64,000 nt of DNA from Candidatus Rifleibacteriota bacterium (GTDB lineage: Bacteria > Muiribacteriota > Ozemobacteria > Ozemobacterales > Ozemobacteraceae), in contig JAAYVD010000103.1 of NCBI GenBank assembly GCA_012517355.1, positions 1 through 64,000 on the forward strand. Direction: 5' to 3'. The notes beneath the pieces are model-generated. The model made no database searches, was not told where the DNA came from, and saw only the letters and a program-made list of their open reading frames with translations. How positions within the stretch are numbered: position 1 is the first letter of the stretch; the number at the start of each line of letters is the position of its first letter. A program made the position numbers and the translations under genes. This document shows positions 31,011-58,656 of the stretch, one piece after another.

Positions 31011-34000
31011 ATGCGATCCGCGCCCTCCCCGTCACCCCGATCGACCGTGGCCTGGCTCGTCCCGTTGCTGGCCGCGCTCTTTCCCGCCTTCGGGTTCTTC
31101 TGGTGCGCCCGGCTGATGGGCGACGACCCGCGGGCCGACCGGGAGGAGGCCTGGATGCGCCGCACCGACGGGGTGGCCCGCCGCCTCGAGCCCCTGTCGC
31201 GGCCGGAATTCTGGTTCGAGGAGAGCCTGCGGCGGCTGCGGCACCGCATCGCCCGCCAGGTGGCCCGGGGAAGGGACGTTCCGACGGCGGTGACCGCCTC
31301 GCTGCGCCGGCCGCTCCTGCGGCGCCCGCTTCCCCTGAGCGTCTGGGCGTTTGCCTTCCCCGGCGGCGACCTCGACGCCGCTCCCGTCATGATCACCGGC
31401 ACGGCCCCGGGCGAGGTCCGCCTCGAGAGCACCAACCGGAGCGTTTTCGGGCGCCTGCTGGTGCAGACCGCCCGCCGCCACGCCGGGTTGCCGTCCGAGC
31501 TCGGCGGGAAGGAGTGGAACCGCCGCCTCGACGGGATCTTCGGCCATGCCATCACCACCGCCACATTCCGGCCAAGCCGCATGGGGAAGGCATTTCCCAC
31601 CATCTTCGGCCGGGAGTTCCAGTTCGCCGCCTGGACCATCCTCGAGGCGGACGGACGGCCGGTCGGGGCCCTGCTGGCCGTCACCCCGAACCGCCCCGAC
31701 CGGGACGTCCTGGCGGCCCGCCAGATCCTGGCCAACTGGGATCGCCGGGACGTGCGGCCCTTCTTCCTCGAGTACCCTGTGACCCCAACCGCCACAGGGG
31801 CCAACCGACACGAGGCCGGAAGTGCCCATGAGCCGCCTCGGACGGCGGCGCGAGTCCCCCGTTCCACGCATCGCCAGAGGGCCGCCCGGGTTCCCGGCGC
31901 CCGCCATGCCGCTCGTCCGGTGGCCCGCCTCCTGCGCCGCGTGCAGGACCGCCTCTGGCTCCGCCCCCCCGACGGCGTGGTGGACTGCCTCGGCCGCCTG
32001 CGTCTCCCGGTCGAATGGATGGGGGCGGCCATCCGGGAAGGGGACTGGCTGGGCCGGGTCTGCCCGCTCGATCCCTCCAGCCGGCACCTCGCCCTCCTCG
32101 TGGGTCGCAGCCCTCCCCGGCCGCCGAACGCCGCGGGCCTGCCCGCCTGGGCCGCCGGAACCGCGTGGGTGCTGGGGTGGCTGCTGCTGCTCTCCCACCG
32201 CCTGCTGTTCGGGGCGTTCCCCTCGCTGGGCGTGCGGGGGAACCTGCTGGCCGCGCTCATGGCCCTGATCGCCCTGCCCCTGGGATTCGCCCTGTCCGGC
32301 GGCGTCCGTTCCCTGGCCGACCGCCGCGAAAACCTGCGGTTTGCCTGGCAGAGCGGGGTTCAGGAGTCGCTCTGGAGAATCGACCAGGAAAGCGGTCGGC
32401 TGCTCCTGCACCAGCGTCAGGTGATCCGCTCCATCTGCGAGGACCCGGCGGTGGTCCACCGACTGCAGGAGATCCAGCGGGCCGGCGGTTCCCCCGCCGC
32501 CTTCCTCGGTGAGATGCTGGAATGGGTGCGGCAGCGGGGCGTCCCCGCCGAGGGGGTCGTCGTGTTCGGCCATCGGGGATTCTCTGGCAGCTGCCAGAAA
32601 GGCACCTTCCCGCCGGAACTCTGGGACTTCGGCACCTACGTCGTCGACGAGGCGATCGGCCGCCAGATGGGCGGCCTTCCCCTGCCACCGGGCGCGGAAG
32701 ACCTGCCCCTGGCCAAGCCCGTCCCCCGGAAAGGCGAGACGGTGCGGAAGGTCATCCGGGCCGCCATGGCCCCGCTGCGGCCCGGCCGGATCACCCGCCT
32801 GTGGCTGGGCGGCAAACACCTGCTGACCTCCGATTTCGGCATCCTGCGGGCGAACGGGGAACCCTGGTACCTCCTCGCTTTCGTGTGGGACCAGCGGGTG
32901 GCCTTCCGGGATTTTCTGCGCGACACCCTGGCCCGTCGCCCCCTGCCCCCGGGCTGGCTGCATCGGGCGGCCTTCGCCGTCGAGGGCGACCCGGAAGCCG
33001 CCCCCGGGGGGGGTCCGGGCAGCGGTCCCGCGCCCCTGGACGACGCCGGAGAGGGGCCGGAGTTGCTGGCCTGTACCTCCGAGACCCGGGACCGCACCCG
33101 CCCCCCGCCCGCCTTCCTGGCCGGCCTGGCGGCCAACGGGCGGAACGGGATCTGGTGGGCCACCTCGCGCGAAGGCGGGGAAGAGTGCCTCGATCTGGCC
33201 GTTCCCTGCGTGGCCATGCCCGGCATGGTCCTGGCGGCCCGCACGTCCCTGGCCAGCATCAACCGCCAGATCCGGCGCGAGGGGGCGTTCCTCGCCGGGG
33301 TCCTCGGCCTGGCCCTGTCGCTGCCGGTATTCGTGGCCTGGATCCTTTCGCGGCAGATGGCCGACCCGGTGCGCCGCCTGGCGGCCGCGCTCCAGGAGGT
33401 GACCGCCGGCAACCTGGGGATCCGGATCGCCGAGGACCGCCCCGACGAGCTCGGCCAGGCCGGGGCGGAACTCGACCGGATGGTCGGGCACCTGCGCGAA
33501 CGTCACGTCCTGGGCCGCTTCGTCGCGCCGGAGGTCCGCGACCTGGTGGGTGGCGGGAACTGGCAGGCGGCGCTCCAGGGTTCGGTCCGGCATGCCGCGG
33601 TGCTCACCGCCGACATCCGTTCCTTCACCACGATCACCGAGTCGCGGCCTCCGGAGGAGGTGTTCCAGGCGCTCGAGGACCACTTCACCGTCCTTGCCCC
33701 GGTCGTCCGCGCCCACGGCGGAACGATCGACCGGTTCAGCGGGGACGCCCTCACCGCGGTGTTCTACGGCCCACCCGCCACCGCCGCCCGGCGGGCCATG
33801 CAGGCCGGGGTCGGCCTGATGCGGGCCCACCACGACCACCAGGGGGCCCGGGCGCGCGCCGGATCCTGGCCGTTCGCCATCGGAGTGGGCATCGACGCCG
33901 GCCCGGTGGTGACGGGCATCGTGGGGGATGCCCAGGTCAGGCTCGACCACACCGTCATGGGCGAGCCGGTGGCCCGGGCCGCCGCCCTCGAAGCGGCTTC

Positions 34001-37000
34001 CAAGGCGGGGTCCGCCACCCGGGTGGTGGTGTCCAACCGGGTGCGCCAGGATGCCTCGGCGCACGGAGAGGTGGTTCCCGTGGCCGGCCCGGTCGACGCC
34101 TGGGAAGTGGTCTCGCTGGCCGATTCTCCCGGGTCCCTGCCACCCTCCTCCTCCCAGACCGGCCCCGCCACCCTATCGGCCGACGGCCCGACCCCGCCCG
34201 CCGTTTCCCCCGACTCCGCCTTGCCGTCGATGGCCCATCGGCTTGCAACGCCCTCGCCGACCATGCCACCGGCGCCGCCAGCGGTGCCGCCCGCCGGGGA
34301 CCCACCCGGGTCGGCGCACGCCCCCACAGCGGGCGGGGACACGGGCACTCCTCTTTCCACCCTTCTGCTCATCGGCTGGTTGACGGGAGCGTTCCTTCTC
34401 GCGGCCTCGTGGTGGATCCTGGAAAACGGGGTGACGGAACGGGCCACGGCCAGGACCCGCCTCCTCCTGGACCAGGATCTCACCCTGATGGAAACCCTGC
34501 TGACGCCGGAACTCGCCATCCGGGCGCACCTGAACGACCACCTCGCCTCCGCCACCCGGGCCGGGGCCGACGGGCTCGCCGCCCTGCCCGGGTTGCTGGC
34601 CGGCCTCGAGCCCGACCTGCCGGGCTCGAGCTGGGCCGTCCTCCGGTTCCGGCCCCTCGCCACCACCTCGCGGGCGGTCTTCGACAACCTCTCGGCCAGC
34701 CACGCCGGGCCCGACGGGGCCTCCCATCCCATCGACCCGGCGACCGTCCGCGCCCTCGACATCGGCGGCCACACCCCCCCCGGCAGCTGGACGATCAGCG
34801 GCCCGAACCTGCTGATGGACACAGCCGGCCAGGGGTTCGGCGGGACCGACGATTCGGTGTTCCTGCTGGCCGTGCCCGGGGAGACCGGCACCGAAGTGAC
34901 CGTCCGGGTGCGGGAGGTCGGCGAGTCGAACCTGCGGGCGGCGGCGGGGCTCATGGTCCGGCAGGGGCTGGCGGCCGACTCGCCGATGGTCTTCTTCGGG
35001 TGCCAGCCCCGCCAGCGGCTGACGACGTGGTACCGGGCGCCCGACTGGCCGATTCCGGTGGTCCTACGGGCCGACGACCTTCCGGGCCCGCTCTGGCTCA
35101 AGGCCCGCCTCCACCCGGGCGCGGTGGAGACGGCCTTCTCGTCCGACGGCCACACCTGGAACGGGGCGGAGGTCCTGCCCCTTCCCGCCAGCGGGCCGCG
35201 CTGGATCGGCCTGGCCGGAACCGCCCAGGCCACCGGGGTCGACAACCGGGCCGAGATGGCCGTGGTGGTCGCCAGCGGCGGCCTTCCCCTTCCCTGCTCG
35301 ACCGCTGCCCTGCCGCGGCTGGGCATCGCCACCCGGATGATCTTCCTGCGGTCGCTGACCGAGGCGGCGGACACGCGGGGCCATCTCGAGCTCGAAAACG
35401 CCTGGGATGCCGAGAAACCGGGCTTCTCCCTGAGCCGGGAGGATGAAATCCTGCGCGCCACCACCCTGTCGTCGCGCATCCCGATGTTCGGGGGCGAACG
35501 CGACTGGTTCGTGCTCCCCGTGCTGACTCCTGGCCACGCCCCAGCCGAGGGCGGGGTCCGGCTCCCCGTGGAGGTGGCCACAGCGGAAGCCCAACGCCCT
35601 TCCCGGCTGGGCAGGAACCTGGACGTCCGCTACCTGGCGGATGGATTGACCGGCCTGGCCATGCTCTGGCTGCCCCCGGGAACGACCACCGCGTCCACCG
35701 CCGCGGCGCTGCTGCCACGCCTTCTCCACCGCCGGGGCATCCGGGGCGGGGCGCTGCCCCTGCAGGCCGACTGCCCTTTCCCGGCCTTTTTCACGCCAGG
35801 CCTGTCCCTGACCAGCCTGTTGACGGGGGCGACGGGGGAGGACGGCACCGGCGAGGGTCTCCTGGAAGGGAGCCGGATCCTGCCGGGGGGGGATTCGCGC
35901 CTGGTGGCCTTCCGGCCCCTGGACTCGGCCGGCGCCGGGGCGGGCCGGGCCCGGTTGGCCCTGGCCTTCTTCCTCGTCTGGCTGGCGGTGGGTCTAGGAT
36001 CCCTGGTCACCGGCCCGTCGGGCGTGGGAATCCTCCGTCGGTCGCTGGGCCTCCAGCTCGTGGCCGGCTTCGCCGCGGCGGTGGTCCCGATCCTCGTGCT
36101 GACCGTCGCCCTGCTCGGACGGATGGGCGAGGAATACTCCACCCTCCTGGAAACGGAGAGCCGGAGGGGCCTGGAGCAGCGCCTCCGGCAGATCGACGAG
36201 AGCGCCCGCCTGTTCGCCGTCTGGCTGCCACAGGCGACCAGGAGGGCGGCCCGGGAGACGGCCCGCTGGCTCTCCCACGCCGCCGACCTCGGCCCGGCGG
36301 CCGTCCGCCGCCATCTCGAGGGCATCTATTCCCGCCTGTACCGGTGCGCGGCGCCCATCAAGTCGGTCAACTTCCTCGATCCCGCCTCGCACCAGGGGTC
36401 CTTTCCGCCACGCGAATCGATCGCCAAGCACGATATCACCGATGCCCTCCAGGTGAACGCGCTCCGGCAGAACATCCGGCGGCTGGAGGGGAAGGCCTTC
36501 TTCGGCGCCGCCGAAGGGAACGACCGGCCGGAAGACCTGCTGATCGGCAGCGAACTGGAAGACGGAAGGGTGATCATCGCCCAGACCATCGGCGAAGAGG
36601 CCAATCTCCGGTTGGGCCTCGATCTCGAGTGCATCGTCACCATCAAGATCGGCACCAACCGCCAGGAGACCTACCATTCGCGCTACCTCCGCGCGGCAGA
36701 CCGGCTCGAGGTCGGAAGGGCCCCCTTGTCACCACGGGGGGTGGAGCAAAACGCGGGTTTCGCGCCTCGCCAGGGGGCCGACCGGCCGGCCGCCGGTAGG
36801 GCCCCTTCAGCGCCGCGGTTGGCGGGGCCAACCGCCCGTCACGCGTCCGGCCAGGAGGCGGACCGCCGCATGGCACTCCTCCAGTTCCGCTGTTCGTATC
36901 CCTTCCGCACCCATCTGCTCGGGTGCTGGGAACAAGCCCTCGCCGGGTCTGCGGACGAGCCTTTGGCGTTGGCGTTCTCCGACGGTTCCCTGACCGGACT

Positions 37001-38195
37001 CCGGTTCCTCCCGGCGGGGGACCGGTTCCCTCCGAAAATGGGACTGCGCTACAACGTCACCCAGGACAGTCCCCAGCGGTGGCTCCTGCCACCCGGCCCC
37101 GCCTGGCTCGCCCTGCGGGCGGCCTACACGAACCAGCCCCTGTGGGAACTGGCGGGAGAAGGGCCGGGCGAGGCCCTCCGCATGGCCTATCCCTCCCGGC
37201 AGGGAACCGACCTGCTGCTCCTGGGCGAGATCGGCCTGGGCGCGCAGCGGGGGACACGGCAGACGGCCATCCGGAGCCAGGAGGGGCTGCTGCTCGCCAT
37301 CCTGGTCCTGACCCTGATCCTGGCCGGCTTGGCGGCCCGGGGGTTCATCGAGCCTTTGCGGACGCTCCGGGCCATGGCCGCCCGCATCGGCGAGGGCGAC
37401 TTCTCCGCCCGCTTCCCTCCGGGGTACCGCGACGAGTTCGCCGTCCTGGCCGGGGCGTTCGACCACATGGCCGAGGCCGGCGAAGAAGGGCGCCTGCTGG
37501 GCCGGTTCGTCTCGGCCGACGTCCGGGAGGTGGCCCGGACCGCCGGGGAAAGGCCCGACGGCCCGCGCGCCGAGCGCCGCGAGGCGGTCATCCTGTTCGC
37601 CGGCCTGGGGGGATTCAAGGAACGACTGGCCACCCGCGACCCCCGGAACCTGGTCGCCATGCTGAACCGGCACCTGGAGACCATGTCACGGATCATCCGC
37701 ACCCACGGCGGGGAGATCGACAAGTTCGTCGGCGACCGGATCCTGGCCGTCTTCCGGCCACCCCCCGGGCAGGAGGCCGTCCTGGCTCTCCCCGGCCCCG
37801 CCCGCTGCGCCCGGGAGATGCGGGCGGCCATGACCGAAACGGGCCTTTCGCGCGACCACACGGGGCGACAGGGGGGCGGTTCCGACCTCCCCTCGGTCGG
37901 AACCGGGTGCCGGCTCGGCGTGGGACTGGTCGCCGGCCAGGTCCTGGCCGGCATCCTGGGGTCGGCCGAGGTGCGACAGGAGTTCACGGTGATCGGCGAT
38001 CCGGTGAACCTGGCCTCGCGCCTCGCCGACCTGGCGGCGGCCCGGCCCGACGGCGGCGTGGTGCTCGACGGCGCGCTCGCCGCCCGGGTGGCCGCCCACG
38101 CGACCGCCTGGGACCTTCCGGTGCCGCGCCTCCTGGAAACGCGCACCGTCAAAGGCAAGACCCGGGCCGTCGAGATCCACCTCCTGCCCGACTGA
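31011..38195 (+). CDS. Double-module transmembrane class III adenylate/guanylate cyclase
   Basis: A 2394-aa membrane protein made of two similar modules, each with four TM segments, a HAMP domain and a class III cyclase domain. Module 1: TMs near 8-30, 380-403, 409-430 and 757-778, HAMP about 779-835, cyclase about 850-1040. A Pro-rich linker (1043-1113) follows. Module 2: TMs near 1114-1137, 1649-1669, 1677-1703 and 2093-2112, HAMP about 2113-2165, cyclase about 2185-2394. Cyclase 1 keeps both metal-binding Asp (D868 in TADIRSF, D912 in FSGDAL) but has Ala at the transition-state Asn and Arg positions (A988, A992) and Arg for the purine-selecting Lys. Cyclase 2 has Gly2198 for the first Asp but keeps Lys2238, Asp2242, Asn2333 and Arg2337. 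One composite site is expected. Two B-family repeats lie in module 2 and one in module 1. ATG at 31011 is chosen by the TM start and the -10 box. Confidence 0.85.
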   Translation: MRSAPSPSPRSTVAWLVPLLAALFPAFGFFWCARLMGDDPRADREEAWMRRTDGVARRLEPLSRPEFWFEESLRRLRHRIARQVARGRDVPTAVTASLRRPLLRRPLPLSVWAFAFPGGDLDAAPVMITGTAPGEVRLESTNRSVFGRLLVQTARRHAGLPSELGGKEWNRRLDGIFGHAITTATFRPSRMGKAFPTIFGREFQFAAWTILEADGRPVGALLAVTPNRPDRDVLAARQILANWDRRDVRPFFLEYPVTPTATGANRHEAGSAHEPPRTAARVPRSTHRQRAARVPGARHAARPVARLLRRVQDRLWLRPPDGVVDCLGRLRLPVEWMGAAIREGDWLGRVCPLDPSSRHLALLVGRSPPRPPNAAGLPAWAAGTAWVLGWLLLLSHRLLFGAFPSLGVRGNLLAALMALIALPLGFALSGGVRSLADRRENLRFAWQSGVQESLWRIDQESGRLLLHQRQVIRSICEDPAVVHRLQEIQRAGGSPAAFLGEMLEWVRQRGVPAEGVVVFGHRGFSGSCQKGTFPPELWDFGTYVVDEAIGRQMGGLPLPPGAEDLPLAKPVPRKGETVRKVIRAAMAPLRPGRITRLWLGGKHLLTSDFGILRANGEPWYLLAFVWDQRVAFRDFLRDTLARRPLPPGWLHRAAFAVEGDPEAAPGGGPGSGPAPLDDAGEGPELLACTSETRDRTRPPPAFLAGLAANGRNGIWWATSREGGEECLDLAVPCVAMPGMVLAARTSLASINRQIRREGAFLAGVLGLALSLPVFVAWILSRQMADPVRRLAAALQEVTAGNLGIRIAEDRPDELGQAGAELDRMVGHLRERHVLGRFVAPEVRDLVGGGNWQAALQGSVRHAAVLTADIRSFTTITESRPPEEVFQALEDHFTVLAPVVRAHGGTIDRFSGDALTAVFYGPPATAARRAMQAGVGLMRAHHDHQGARARAGSWPFAIGVGIDAGPVVTGIVGDAQVRLDHTVMGEPVARAAALEAASKAGSATRVVVSNRVRQDASAHGEVVPVAGPVDAWEVVSLADSPGSLPPSSSQTGPATLSADGPTPPAVSPDSALPSMAHRLATPSPTMPPAPPAVPPAGDPPGSAHAPTAGGDTGTPLSTLLLIGWLTGAFLLAASWWILENGVTERATARTRLLLDQDLTLMETLLTPELAIRAHLNDHLASATRAGADGLAALPGLLAGLEPDLPGSSWAVLRFRPLATTSRAVFDNLSASHAGPDGASHPIDPATVRALDIGGHTPPGSWTISGPNLLMDTAGQGFGGTDDSVFLLAVPGETGTEVTVRVREVGESNLRAAAGLMVRQGLAADSPMVFFGCQPRQRLTTWYRAPDWPIPVVLRADDLPGPLWLKARLHPGAVETAFSSDGHTWNGAEVLPLPASGPRWIGLAGTAQATGVDNRAEMAVVVASGGLPLPCSTAALPRLGIATRMIFLRSLTEAADTRGHLELENAWDAEKPGFSLSREDEILRATTLSSRIPMFGGERDWFVLPVLTPGHAPAEGGVRLPVEVATAEAQRPSRLGRNLDVRYLADGLTGLAMLWLPPGTTTASTAAALLPRLLHRRGIRGGALPLQADCPFPAFFTPGLSLTSLLTGATGEDGTGEGLLEGSRILPGGDSRLVAFRPLDSAGAGAGRARLALAFFLVWLAVGLGSLVTGPSGVGILRRSLGLQLVAGFAAAVVPILVLTVALLGRMGEEYSTLLETESRRGLEQRLRQIDESARLFAVWLPQATRRAARETARWLSHAADLGPAAVRRHLEGIYSRLYRCAAPIKSVNFLDPASHQGSFPPRESIAKHDITDALQVNALRQNIRRLEGKAFFGAAEGNDRPEDLLIGSELEDGRVIIAQTIGEEANLRLGLDLECIVTIKIGTNRQETYHSRYLRAADRLEVGRAPLSPRGVEQNAGFAPRQGADRPAAGRAPSAPRLAGPTARHASGQEADRRMALLQFRCSYPFRTHLLGCWEQALAGSADEPLALAFSDGSLTGLRFLPAGDRFPPKMGLRYNVTQDSPQRWLLPPGPAWLALRAAYTNQPLWELAGEGPGEALRMAYPSRQGTDLLLLGEIGLGAQRGTRQTAIRSQEGLLLAILVLTLILAGLAARGFIEPLRTLRAMAARIGEGDFSARFPPGYRDEFAVLAGAFDHMAEAGEEGRLLGRFVSADVREVARTAGERPDGPRAERREAVILFAGLGGFKERLATRDPRNLVAMLNRHLETMSRIIRTHGGEIDKFVGDRILAVFRPPPGQEAVLALPGPARCAREMRAAMTETGLSRDHTGRQGGGSDLPSVGTGCRLGVGLVAGQVLAGILGSAEVRQEFTVIGDPVNLASRLADLAAARPDGGVVLDGALAARVAAHATAWDLPVPRLLETRTVKGKTRAVEIHLLPD
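31803..31870 (+). repeat. B-family repeat, copy B7, inside the double cyclase gene
   Basis: CCGACACGAGGCCGGAAGTG followed by GCCGCCTCGGACGGCGGCGC and GAGTCCCCCGTTCCACGC. It encodes residues about 265-287 (Arg/Pro/Ala-rich) of the first extracytoplasmic region, in frame. Confidence 0.65.
36707..36850 (+). repeat. B-family repeats B8 and B9, in tandem inside the double cyclase gene
   Basis: B8 (36707-36770) contains GTCGGAAGGGCCCCCT, identical over 16 nt to intergenic copy B1, then CACCACGG and AAAACGCGGGTTTCGCGC. B9 (36789-36850) contains GGTAGGGCCCCTTCAGCG and the palindrome TTGGCGGGGCCAACCGCC. They encode residues about 1900-1947 in frame. Confidence 0.65.
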
Positions 38196-56541: not shown

Positions 56542-56574
56542 TGGCTCCTACCCCCCGCTCCCCCTGACCTGATC

Positions 56575-58656
56575 ATGCCAGCCTTCCTGCGGCGGCCCAG
56601 CCTCTGGTTCCTGGTCGTCACCCTGGCCATCCTCGCCCTCGGCCGCGGGGTCTTCCGGTTCGCCGACACCCGCCTCCGCGACCTCTGGGTACGGTGGCGG
56701 GTGGCGGCCCACCAGCCGGCCGAACACCCCTGGCTGGCCGCCACGGCCCGGTTCTTCCCCCTCGACCGGCACGGGGCCGAACTGATCCTGGCCATGTACG
56801 ACGACAAGGCCTACCTCGGCATCCCCGGCCCGCCACCGCCCTGGAACCGCCGCGTCTACGCCACCGCCCTCCGCGAGATCGCCCGCGGCCGGCCCCGGGT
56901 GACCGGCATCGACCTGTTCTTCCGCGCCAGATCGGCCTTCGATCAGGAACAGGACGATGACCTGATCGCCGCCATCCGCGAGGCGAGCCCCACCGTGCTG
57001 ATGTCCTACCGGCGCGACCGGTTCGAGGCCCTCCCCTTTCCCGAACTGGCCGAGGCCAGTGTCTGCGCGCCCCCCTACTTCTACCCGTATGTCGACGAAT
57101 CGGTGCGCAAGGCCAGCCTCGTCTTCCGGCCGGTCGATGGCCCCCCCCGCCTGTCCTTCGTCGGCGAGATGGCCCGCCTCTATTGGGGCCTGGCCCCTGA
57201 CCAGGTCGTGATCCGCGACGACGAGGTGGTCTTCCGGCGGCCCGAAGGCGACCACGTCGTTCCCCTCGCCGAGGGCGAGAACCTCTACATCAACTACAAC
57301 TCACTCGTGCGGCAGGTGCCGGTGGTCTCGATCTTCGACCTGTTCCACCGCCGCGTCGATCCGGGCCTGTTCAAGGACCGCATCGTCATGCTCGGCCTGA
57401 GCAACTCGCTGCTGCAGGACCGCTTCCTGACCCCCACGGGCCAGCCCGAATTCGGCACCCTGATCCACGCCCTCACCCTGCAGAACATCCTGACCGGCAC
57501 CTGGCTGCGCCACCCCGACGACTGGCAGGGGCCGATCCTCGGGGCGCTCCTGCTCCTGGTCTCCTTCCTGGTCATCGGGGCCCGCCTGTCGCCGGTTCCC
57601 TACCTCGCCGCCACCTTCGCCGGCTGCCTCGCCCTCCTGGCTGTTTCCTGGCACGGCATGATCTTCGATCTCCGGATGGTGGACGTCGCGCCCGGCCTGT
57701 TCGGCCTGGTCGCCGCCGCCGCCTTCTCGATCGGCCTGCGCTACTACACCGAGCTGAGCGAGAAGCTGCGCATCAAGCACGCGTTCCAGCATTACGTCAC
57801 CGCCTCGGTCGTCAACGAGATCCTGCGCGACCCCTCGAAACTCAACCTGCACGGCGAAGAGCGCATCCTGACCGTCTTCTTCTCGGACATCGCCGGGTTC
57901 ACCGCCCTGTCGGAAGGACGCACCCCCATCGAGGTGGTGGAACAGCTGAACGAGTATCTGACCGAGATGACCGAGATCGTCTTCCAGTATGAAGGGCTGC
58001 TCGACAAGTACGAGGGGGATGCCATCATGGCCGTGTTCGGCGCGCCCATCGGGCAGGTCGATCACGCCGTGCGCGCCTGCCGCTGCGCCCTCGCCAACCA
58101 GCAGGCCCTCGCCCCCCTGCGGGCGAAGTGGCGCGCCGAGGGCAAACCCGAACTCCACGCCAGGATCGGCATCAACACCGGGGTCGTCGTGGTGGGGAAC
58201 ATGGGTTCCCGCATGCGGTTCGACTACACCGTCATCGGCGACAACGTGAACCTCGCCGCCCGTCTCGAGGGGGCCAACAAGCTGTTCCAGAGCAGCATCA
58301 TGGTCGGCCCCACCACCGCCAGCCTGGTCGCGGAGGCGATCCTGACCCGCTCCCTCGGCCGGCTGCAGGTGCTGGGCCGCCAGCAGACCGTCGAGGTCTT
58401 CGAAGTGCTGGCCGCCCTCGACGACCCCGACGGCGGCCGCCTGGAAGCCGCCCGGCACGCCAAAACCGCTTGGGAGGAAGCCTTCGCCCTGGCCCTCGCC
58501 GGCCGCTACGCCGACGGCATGATCCGCCTGGAGACCTACCTGAAGGGCCGGCCCGACGACCGGCCCGCCACCATCTTCTACGAGAAGCTGTCCCAGTTCG
58601 CCGCGTATCCTCCCGCCGACGGCTGGCAGGGGGTCTGGCTCCAGGAGGCCAAATAG
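56575..58656 (+). CDS. CHASE2-domain adenylate/guanylate cyclase
   Basis: A 693-aa membrane cyclase. An N-terminal TM (about 9-26), a large extracytoplasmic CHASE2 sensor domain (about 30-315), three TM segments (about 317-390), and a cytoplasmic class III cyclase domain (about 425-600), followed by about 90 residues of helical tail. All catalytic positions are kept: metal-binding D438 (FFSDIAGFT) and D482 (YEGDAIMAVF), Lys478, Asn559 and Arg563 (TVIGDNVNLAARLE). It should therefore be active as a homodimer, making cAMP or cGMP; Lys478 favours ATP. It stands in the pseudopilin cluster upstream of a STAS protein, so signal-dependent control of that system is plausible. Confidence 0.92.
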   Translation: MPAFLRRPSLWFLVVTLAILALGRGVFRFADTRLRDLWVRWRVAAHQPAEHPWLAATARFFPLDRHGAELILAMYDDKAYLGIPGPPPPWNRRVYATALREIARGRPRVTGIDLFFRARSAFDQEQDDDLIAAIREASPTVLMSYRRDRFEALPFPELAEASVCAPPYFYPYVDESVRKASLVFRPVDGPPRLSFVGEMARLYWGLAPDQVVIRDDEVVFRRPEGDHVVPLAEGENLYINYNSLVRQVPVVSIFDLFHRRVDPGLFKDRIVMLGLSNSLLQDRFLTPTGQPEFGTLIHALTLQNILTGTWLRHPDDWQGPILGALLLLVSFLVIGARLSPVPYLAATFAGCLALLAVSWHGMIFDLRMVDVAPGLFGLVAAAAFSIGLRYYTELSEKLRIKHAFQHYVTASVVNEILRDPSKLNLHGEERILTVFFSDIAGFTALSEGRTPIEVVEQLNEYLTEMTEIVFQYEGLLDKYEGDAIMAVFGAPIGQVDHAVRACRCALANQQALAPLRAKWRAEGKPELHARIGINTGVVVVGNMGSRMRFDYTVIGDNVNLAARLEGANKLFQSSIMVGPTTASLVAEAILTRSLGRLQVLGRQQTVEVFEVLAALDDPDGGRLEAARHAKTAWEEAFALALAGRYADGMIRLETYLKGRPDDRPATIFYEKLSQFAAYPPADGWQGVWLQEAK

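Follow-up and report, generated by a model that had tools for sequence, protein, structure and literature searches.

Known cyclases with split catalytic sites

In mammalian transmembrane adenylyl cyclases the catalytic site is split between two domains, C1 and C2, of a single M1-C1-M2-C2 chain, and a KGK motif in C2 carries the lysine that binds phosphate. In the bacterial adenylyl cyclase CyaC, the purine is read by a Lys/Thr pattern. Soluble adenylyl cyclase, sAC (ADCY10), is a tandem C1-C2 protein with one active site (PMC4506562), and NO-sensitive soluble guanylyl cyclase, sGC, is an alpha/beta heterodimer (PMC3591389). For bacteria, a fused dimeric class III cyclase was described as unknown and the enzymes as homodimerizing (Schultz 2022, PMC9552081), and in the literature searched here, with subscription journals thinly covered, no bacterial heterodimeric class III cyclase was found. 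The fold and the chemistry are already known, as is the split site itself from the mammalian membrane enzymes, sAC and sGC; what is new is a bacterial split-site family, fused and unfused, of which one genome alone has about 28 loci.

What is gained by a duplicated and fused cyclase over a homodimer? Bacteria now allow a direct test of that long-standing question: the pairs occur naturally both fused and unfused, intact solo relatives can serve as controls, and two sensor modules go with each active site. The family also gives many cases, its unfused, reversed and fused forms occurring together in one phylum.

The fused gene and its parts

The window, i.e., the whole stretch of 64,000 nucleotides analysed, carries at 31011..38195 on the plus strand a gene whose 2394-aa product is very probably a membrane-bound class IIIb adenylyl cyclase, an obligate pseudoheterodimer that has two sensor inputs and a single site between C1 and C2, and that probably evolved convergently with the mammalian enzymes. 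This fused C1/C2 class III cyclase gene was delimited by translation, Pfam and hydropathy; its frame is open throughout, as the initial annotation had it, and Pfam finds in it two Guanylate_cyc (PF00211) stretches over cut-off and two HAMP domains. The plan of the chain is TM-sensor-TM-TM-sensor-TM-HAMP-C1-linker-TM-sensor-TM-TM-sensor-TM-HAMP-C2, with all parts on the plus strand. By hydropathy, the membrane and sensor part of module 1 (31044..33347) has TMs at aa 12-30, 412-430 and 761-779 and a weak one at about 378-400, and the N-terminal 450 aa of this module gave 37 matches among the fetched relatives. It is followed by HAMP domain 1 (approximately 33348..33506; Pfam PF00672 and AF2 helices), by cyclase domain 1, of C1 type (33576..34121; signature, AF2 pLDDT 89, Foldseek to Cya2/CyaC and to AC5 C1), and by a Pro-rich linker between the modules (34122..34352, from the translation) for which no match was found in any fetched relative. 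The membrane and sensor part of module 2 (34353..37343) has TMs, again by hydropathy, at aa 1115-1133, 1650-1668, 1683-1701 and 2093-2111; then come HAMP domain 2 (37332..37478, aa 2108-2156; Pfam PF00672) and cyclase domain 2, of C2 type (37566..38192; signature, AF2 pLDDT 89, Foldseek to CyaB/CyaC). C1 through C2, with everything in between, spans 1557 aa. Four TMs per module, as first proposed, holds for module 2, but module 1 has three clear ones and one weak. As to the identity of the sensors, Pfam gives HAMP and cyclase domains only in 15 fused relatives, and the NCBIfam matches are below cut-off and driven by HAMP.

A dispersed repeat of ~82 bp lies in-frame within the cyclase gene (window 31798-31890, aa ~263-293), with weaker window copies near 2662, 8345 and 25399. 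Across the genome the repeat has 53 matches or more, which frequently form tandem arrays with ~81 bp from copy to copy and also occur within coding sequences. Odd composition had raised the suspicion of a double frameshift at aa ~260-345; this was rejected, as the segment is an in-frame copy of the repeat and relatives align on both sides of it.

Could so long an ORF be an assembly artefact, or a misjoin of separate genes? The assembly is a draft of 184 contigs and there is a dispersed repeat within the gene, but fused ORFs of 1797-2631 codons turn up in about ten genomes, on different contigs, and group in supported clades, and with such recurrence an artefact becomes exceedingly improbable for the window ORF.

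Catalytic residues

Read in the order Me1, Lys, Me2, purine, Asn, Arg from an HMM alignment to CyaB/Cya2, the signature of domain 1 is DRDTAA and that of domain 2 is GKDTNR. Domain 1 has both metal aspartates, Asp868 and Asp912, with Asn replaced by Ala988, Arg by Ala992 and Lys by Arg908; domain 2 has Gly2198 in place of the first metal Asp, and Lys2238, Thr2326, Asn2333 and Arg2337 are present. Every position in the initial annotation's list (D868, R908, D912, A988, A992, G2198, K2238, N2333, R2337) is correct, and the complementary loss that it read from them stands. Absent from it were the second metal Asp that domain 2 retains, D2242, and the C-terminal KGK of domain 2 (V-Lys2381-Gly-Lys2383), which domain 1 is without. 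The full catalytic set (two metal Asp, purine pair, Asn, Arg) is reached only by C1 and C2 combined, and in a symmetric homodimer neither window domain completes a site with itself. CyaB, CyaC, Cya2, OaPAC and Rv1625c, to which the solo relatives in the same genome correspond in type, share fold and motifs with the window protein but differ in having all residues in each chain and two equivalent homodimer sites.

AlphaFold models of HAMP-C1 and of HAMP-C2, each made separately, have a mean pLDDT of 89, and in Foldseek both domains match class III cyclases; for C1, the sole mammalian membrane cyclase chain in the best 50 is the C1 chain of 1azs. In profile searches the family's C1 type agrees best with sGC alpha and with the C1 half of sAC, AC8 and AC5, and its C2 type with sGC beta and with the C2 half of the same three adenylyl cyclases. 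This correspondence is imperfect, since with AC9 the C2 profile points to the C1 half.

Judged by K2238 and T2326, the window family is class IIIb (CyaB/CyaC/sAC-like), an assignment made because of the Lys and Thr purine residues and the best structural relatives, which makes sAC a functional parallel no more distant than the mammalian membrane enzymes. The likeness to the latter originally drawn thus survives for the complementary split, and has to be shared with sAC. Like ADCY1-9, the window protein has its two membrane modules and its two class III domains on one chain in the order M1-C1-M2-C2, and, as far as the window's sequence tells, the metal Asp pair in C1, the Lys, Asn, Arg and phosphate Lys in C2, and one active and one dead site. 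The adenine reader of the window family is Thr (69/69 pairs), whereas the mammalian enzymes are class IIIa with Lys/Asp; the window protein has 3-4 TMs per module, extracytoplasmic sensor parts and HAMP instead of 6-TM bundles; and the family is bacterial, with no G-protein input expected, and has further members that are unfused operons or have the two halves in the opposite order. With ADCY10 it shares tandem catalytic domains in one chain and a single competent site, but there C1 and C2 are adjacent at the N-terminus, without membrane modules. The unfused operon pairs resemble sGC in being two-gene heterodimers of homologous subunits, though sGC is eukaryotic, GTP-specific and has a heme sensor.

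The closest fold match of C1 in Foldseek is the guanylyl cyclase Cya2, and the enzyme could be a guanylyl cyclase or make another cyclic nucleotide. That is unlikely, as the purine readers in C2 are Lys and Thr in 69/69 pairs, as in CyaB, and those of Cya2 are Glu/Gly; because of the Lys/Thr pair, ATP is favoured over GTP.

A family within one genome

The genome that holds the window (Riflebacteria lineage; 7.1 Mb in 184 contigs) was surveyed with the neutral Pfam query PF00211, which gave 87 cyclase domains. Of these, 57 make up 28 tandem loci, 27 of which are pairs and the other a triple. All 57 have an incomplete site, and in all 28 loci the losses are complementary: one partner has both metal Asp and is without Asn/Arg and KGK, and the other has Lys, Thr, Asn, Arg and KGK and is without a metal Asp. 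An intact catalytic set is present in 27 of the 30 stand-alone domains, and the Fisher p of 1.7e-19 for tandem versus stand-alone intactness is descriptive only, because the domains are kin. One stand-alone protein, a CHASE2-cyclase with all six residues intact by signature (DKDTNR), is in the window itself (56542..58653, plus strand) and serves as an internal control. Chance loss in a single protein is ruled out by this survey, and the split site first proposed for one protein turns out to belong to a large family. A single open frame, of about 1630-2680 codons, is found in 12 of the 28 loci, one reaching a contig end; the remaining loci are two neighbouring genes, a few of them ordered C2-C1. 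The same genome has 24 cNMP-binding domains.

Two loci break a strict one-to-one C1:C2 rule. On contig C20 (L044/L069) a triple locus consists of two C1-type genes with a single C2-type gene after them, and on contig C112 (L068:5830-8256) there is an orphan C2-type cyclase, GKDTNR, with an sCache sensor, HAMP and C-terminal HEAT repeats, for which no C1 partner was found in the 17 kb fetched around the gene.

Pairs across the phylum

Sampling was extended to 40 genomes of the phylum in 8 families, and 60 further regions were read, giving 69 pairs in total. The other genomes were searched with a C1 profile, so that the choice of C1 is biased, but the partner was unselected and the own-genome survey neutral. 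Candidatus Riflebacteria relatives among the matches listed include JADFXM010000008.1, PGYB01000002.1 and JAHISQ010000062.1. Both metal Asp are present in 69/69 C1 domains, and Asn and Arg together in 0/69; Lys, Thr, Asn and Arg are present in 69/69 C2 domains, and in every pair C2 has lost a metal Asp, Me1 in 67 (two read by eye in the alignment) and Me2 in the other two. Some C2 domains are without the second metal Asp as well, which is neutral for the split-site model. Every C2 that can be aligned in this region has KGK (K/R-G-K), and no C1 has it. The same complementary losses, non-randomly distributed, had been the thing to look for in homologues, and all 69 pairs have them. The positions released from constraint drift, the Asn site of C1 showing 14 residue types and its Arg site 13, and the retained positions are invariant, a pattern expected under purifying selection on a site that both domains share, but not under general decay.

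In genome G023, contig C9 (L222) has three successive C2-C1 pairs whose C2 signature is GKKTNR, with Gly and Lys at the metal positions and both ligands lost.

Are both cyclase domains simply dead, retained as non-catalytic signalling or nucleotide-binding modules? Each domain alone is without essential residues, and 87 cyclase domains are many for one genome, but decay would strike the catalytic positions at random, and what is found is exactly one half-site retained per partner, invariant in 69/69 pairs, with KGK in C2 only. Such pseudo-cyclases are a very improbable explanation, and a catalytic pair is strongly preferred.

About 38 of the 69 pairs are single chains; the two-gene pairs have C1 first in 22 cases and C2 first in 9. 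Stop and start overlap by 4 nt in the majority of two-gene pairs, and by about 13 nt in several others; the 4-nt overlap favours 1:1 translation of C1 and C2. C1 and C2 distances correlate across loci with r = 0.80 (maximum 0.26 in 2000 shuffles), matching the expectation for co-inherited partners, though this mirror-tree signal, like that of conservation, stems in part from shared descent of the tandem loci. Catalysis by C1 with the C2 of another copy or paralog, or mixing among the 28 loci, has to be weighed at this point. The two-gene versions necessarily pair between chains, and the orphan C2 of C112 and the extra C1 of the C20 triple are in the genome; against that, partners are always co-encoded, either with the 4-nt overlap or fused, and their distances correlate by locus. 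Co-encoding and correlation favour the local partner, and pairing in trans, while having some chance of being right, is the less probable arrangement.

Proposed mechanism

With local pairing, C1 and C2 of the window protein would be in physical contact and form a single ATP site at their interface within one chain, the mirror-image site being dead. C1 would supply the two metal-binding aspartates, and C2 the adenine-reading Lys and Thr together with the transition-state Asn and Arg, its KGK motif being expected to hold the ATP phosphates. The two different sensor and membrane modules, each via its own HAMP, would set the position of C1 relative to C2, and because each acts on that position the output would depend on two inputs. 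The cAMP produced would then presumably act through cyclic-nucleotide-binding proteins of CRP type, for which the 24 cNMP-binding domains of the genome are candidates.

Descent and a second origin

On balance, it seems probable that adenylyl cyclases with a split site and two inputs arose in bacteria separately from those of eukaryotes, and on more than one occasion, in Riflebacteria and in a cyanobacterial lineage (L145/G040, G058), with family f5 perhaps still at an early stage. Riflebacteria would then record the whole path from an intact solo enzyme to a two-gene operon in either order, then through one or two fusions to M1-C1-M2-C2, and on to about 28 copies in one genome that maybe are coincidence detectors. 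In a tree of 308 domains, none of them eukaryotic, the 82 C1 domains of tandem loci form one clade (support 0.97) and those of C2 type also form one clade (support 0.85). Both clades adjoin solo cyclases of this phylum that are intact, and the majority of the solos sampled from Treponema, Proteobacteria and others fall outside. With one C1 clade and one C2 clade, the pair is taken to have arisen once in this Riflebacteria-type phylum, by duplication, the candidate ancestor being an intact solo cyclase. The independent bacterial case argued for at the outset agrees with this, as the tree places the origin inside the phylum, apart from solos sampled from other phyla.

A tree of concatenated pairs, rooted on family f3, has reversed unfused pairs near its base and fused chains in two separate clades, and fusion may therefore have occurred twice, or once been undone. 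The order of steps suggested is that the two-gene heterodimer operon came first, followed by expansion and fusion into one chain.

In an uncultured cyanobacterium (L145:4171-7795; CALGDE010000152.1), found among the matches listed in a collection-wide scan, adjacent HAMP-cyclase genes have the signatures DKTTNR and DKDTQY, and a relative of that genome (G058, contig C312) retains the pair as DKTTNR and DQDTQH. In the tree the two L145 domains are neighbours and lie apart from the Riflebacteria pairs, and on these signatures and positions the cyanobacterial split-site pair looks like an independent origin. In family f5 (L220, L221) a tandem pair joins an intact domain, DKDTNR, to one without the second metal Asp only, DKGTNR, and is possibly an early or intermediate stage.
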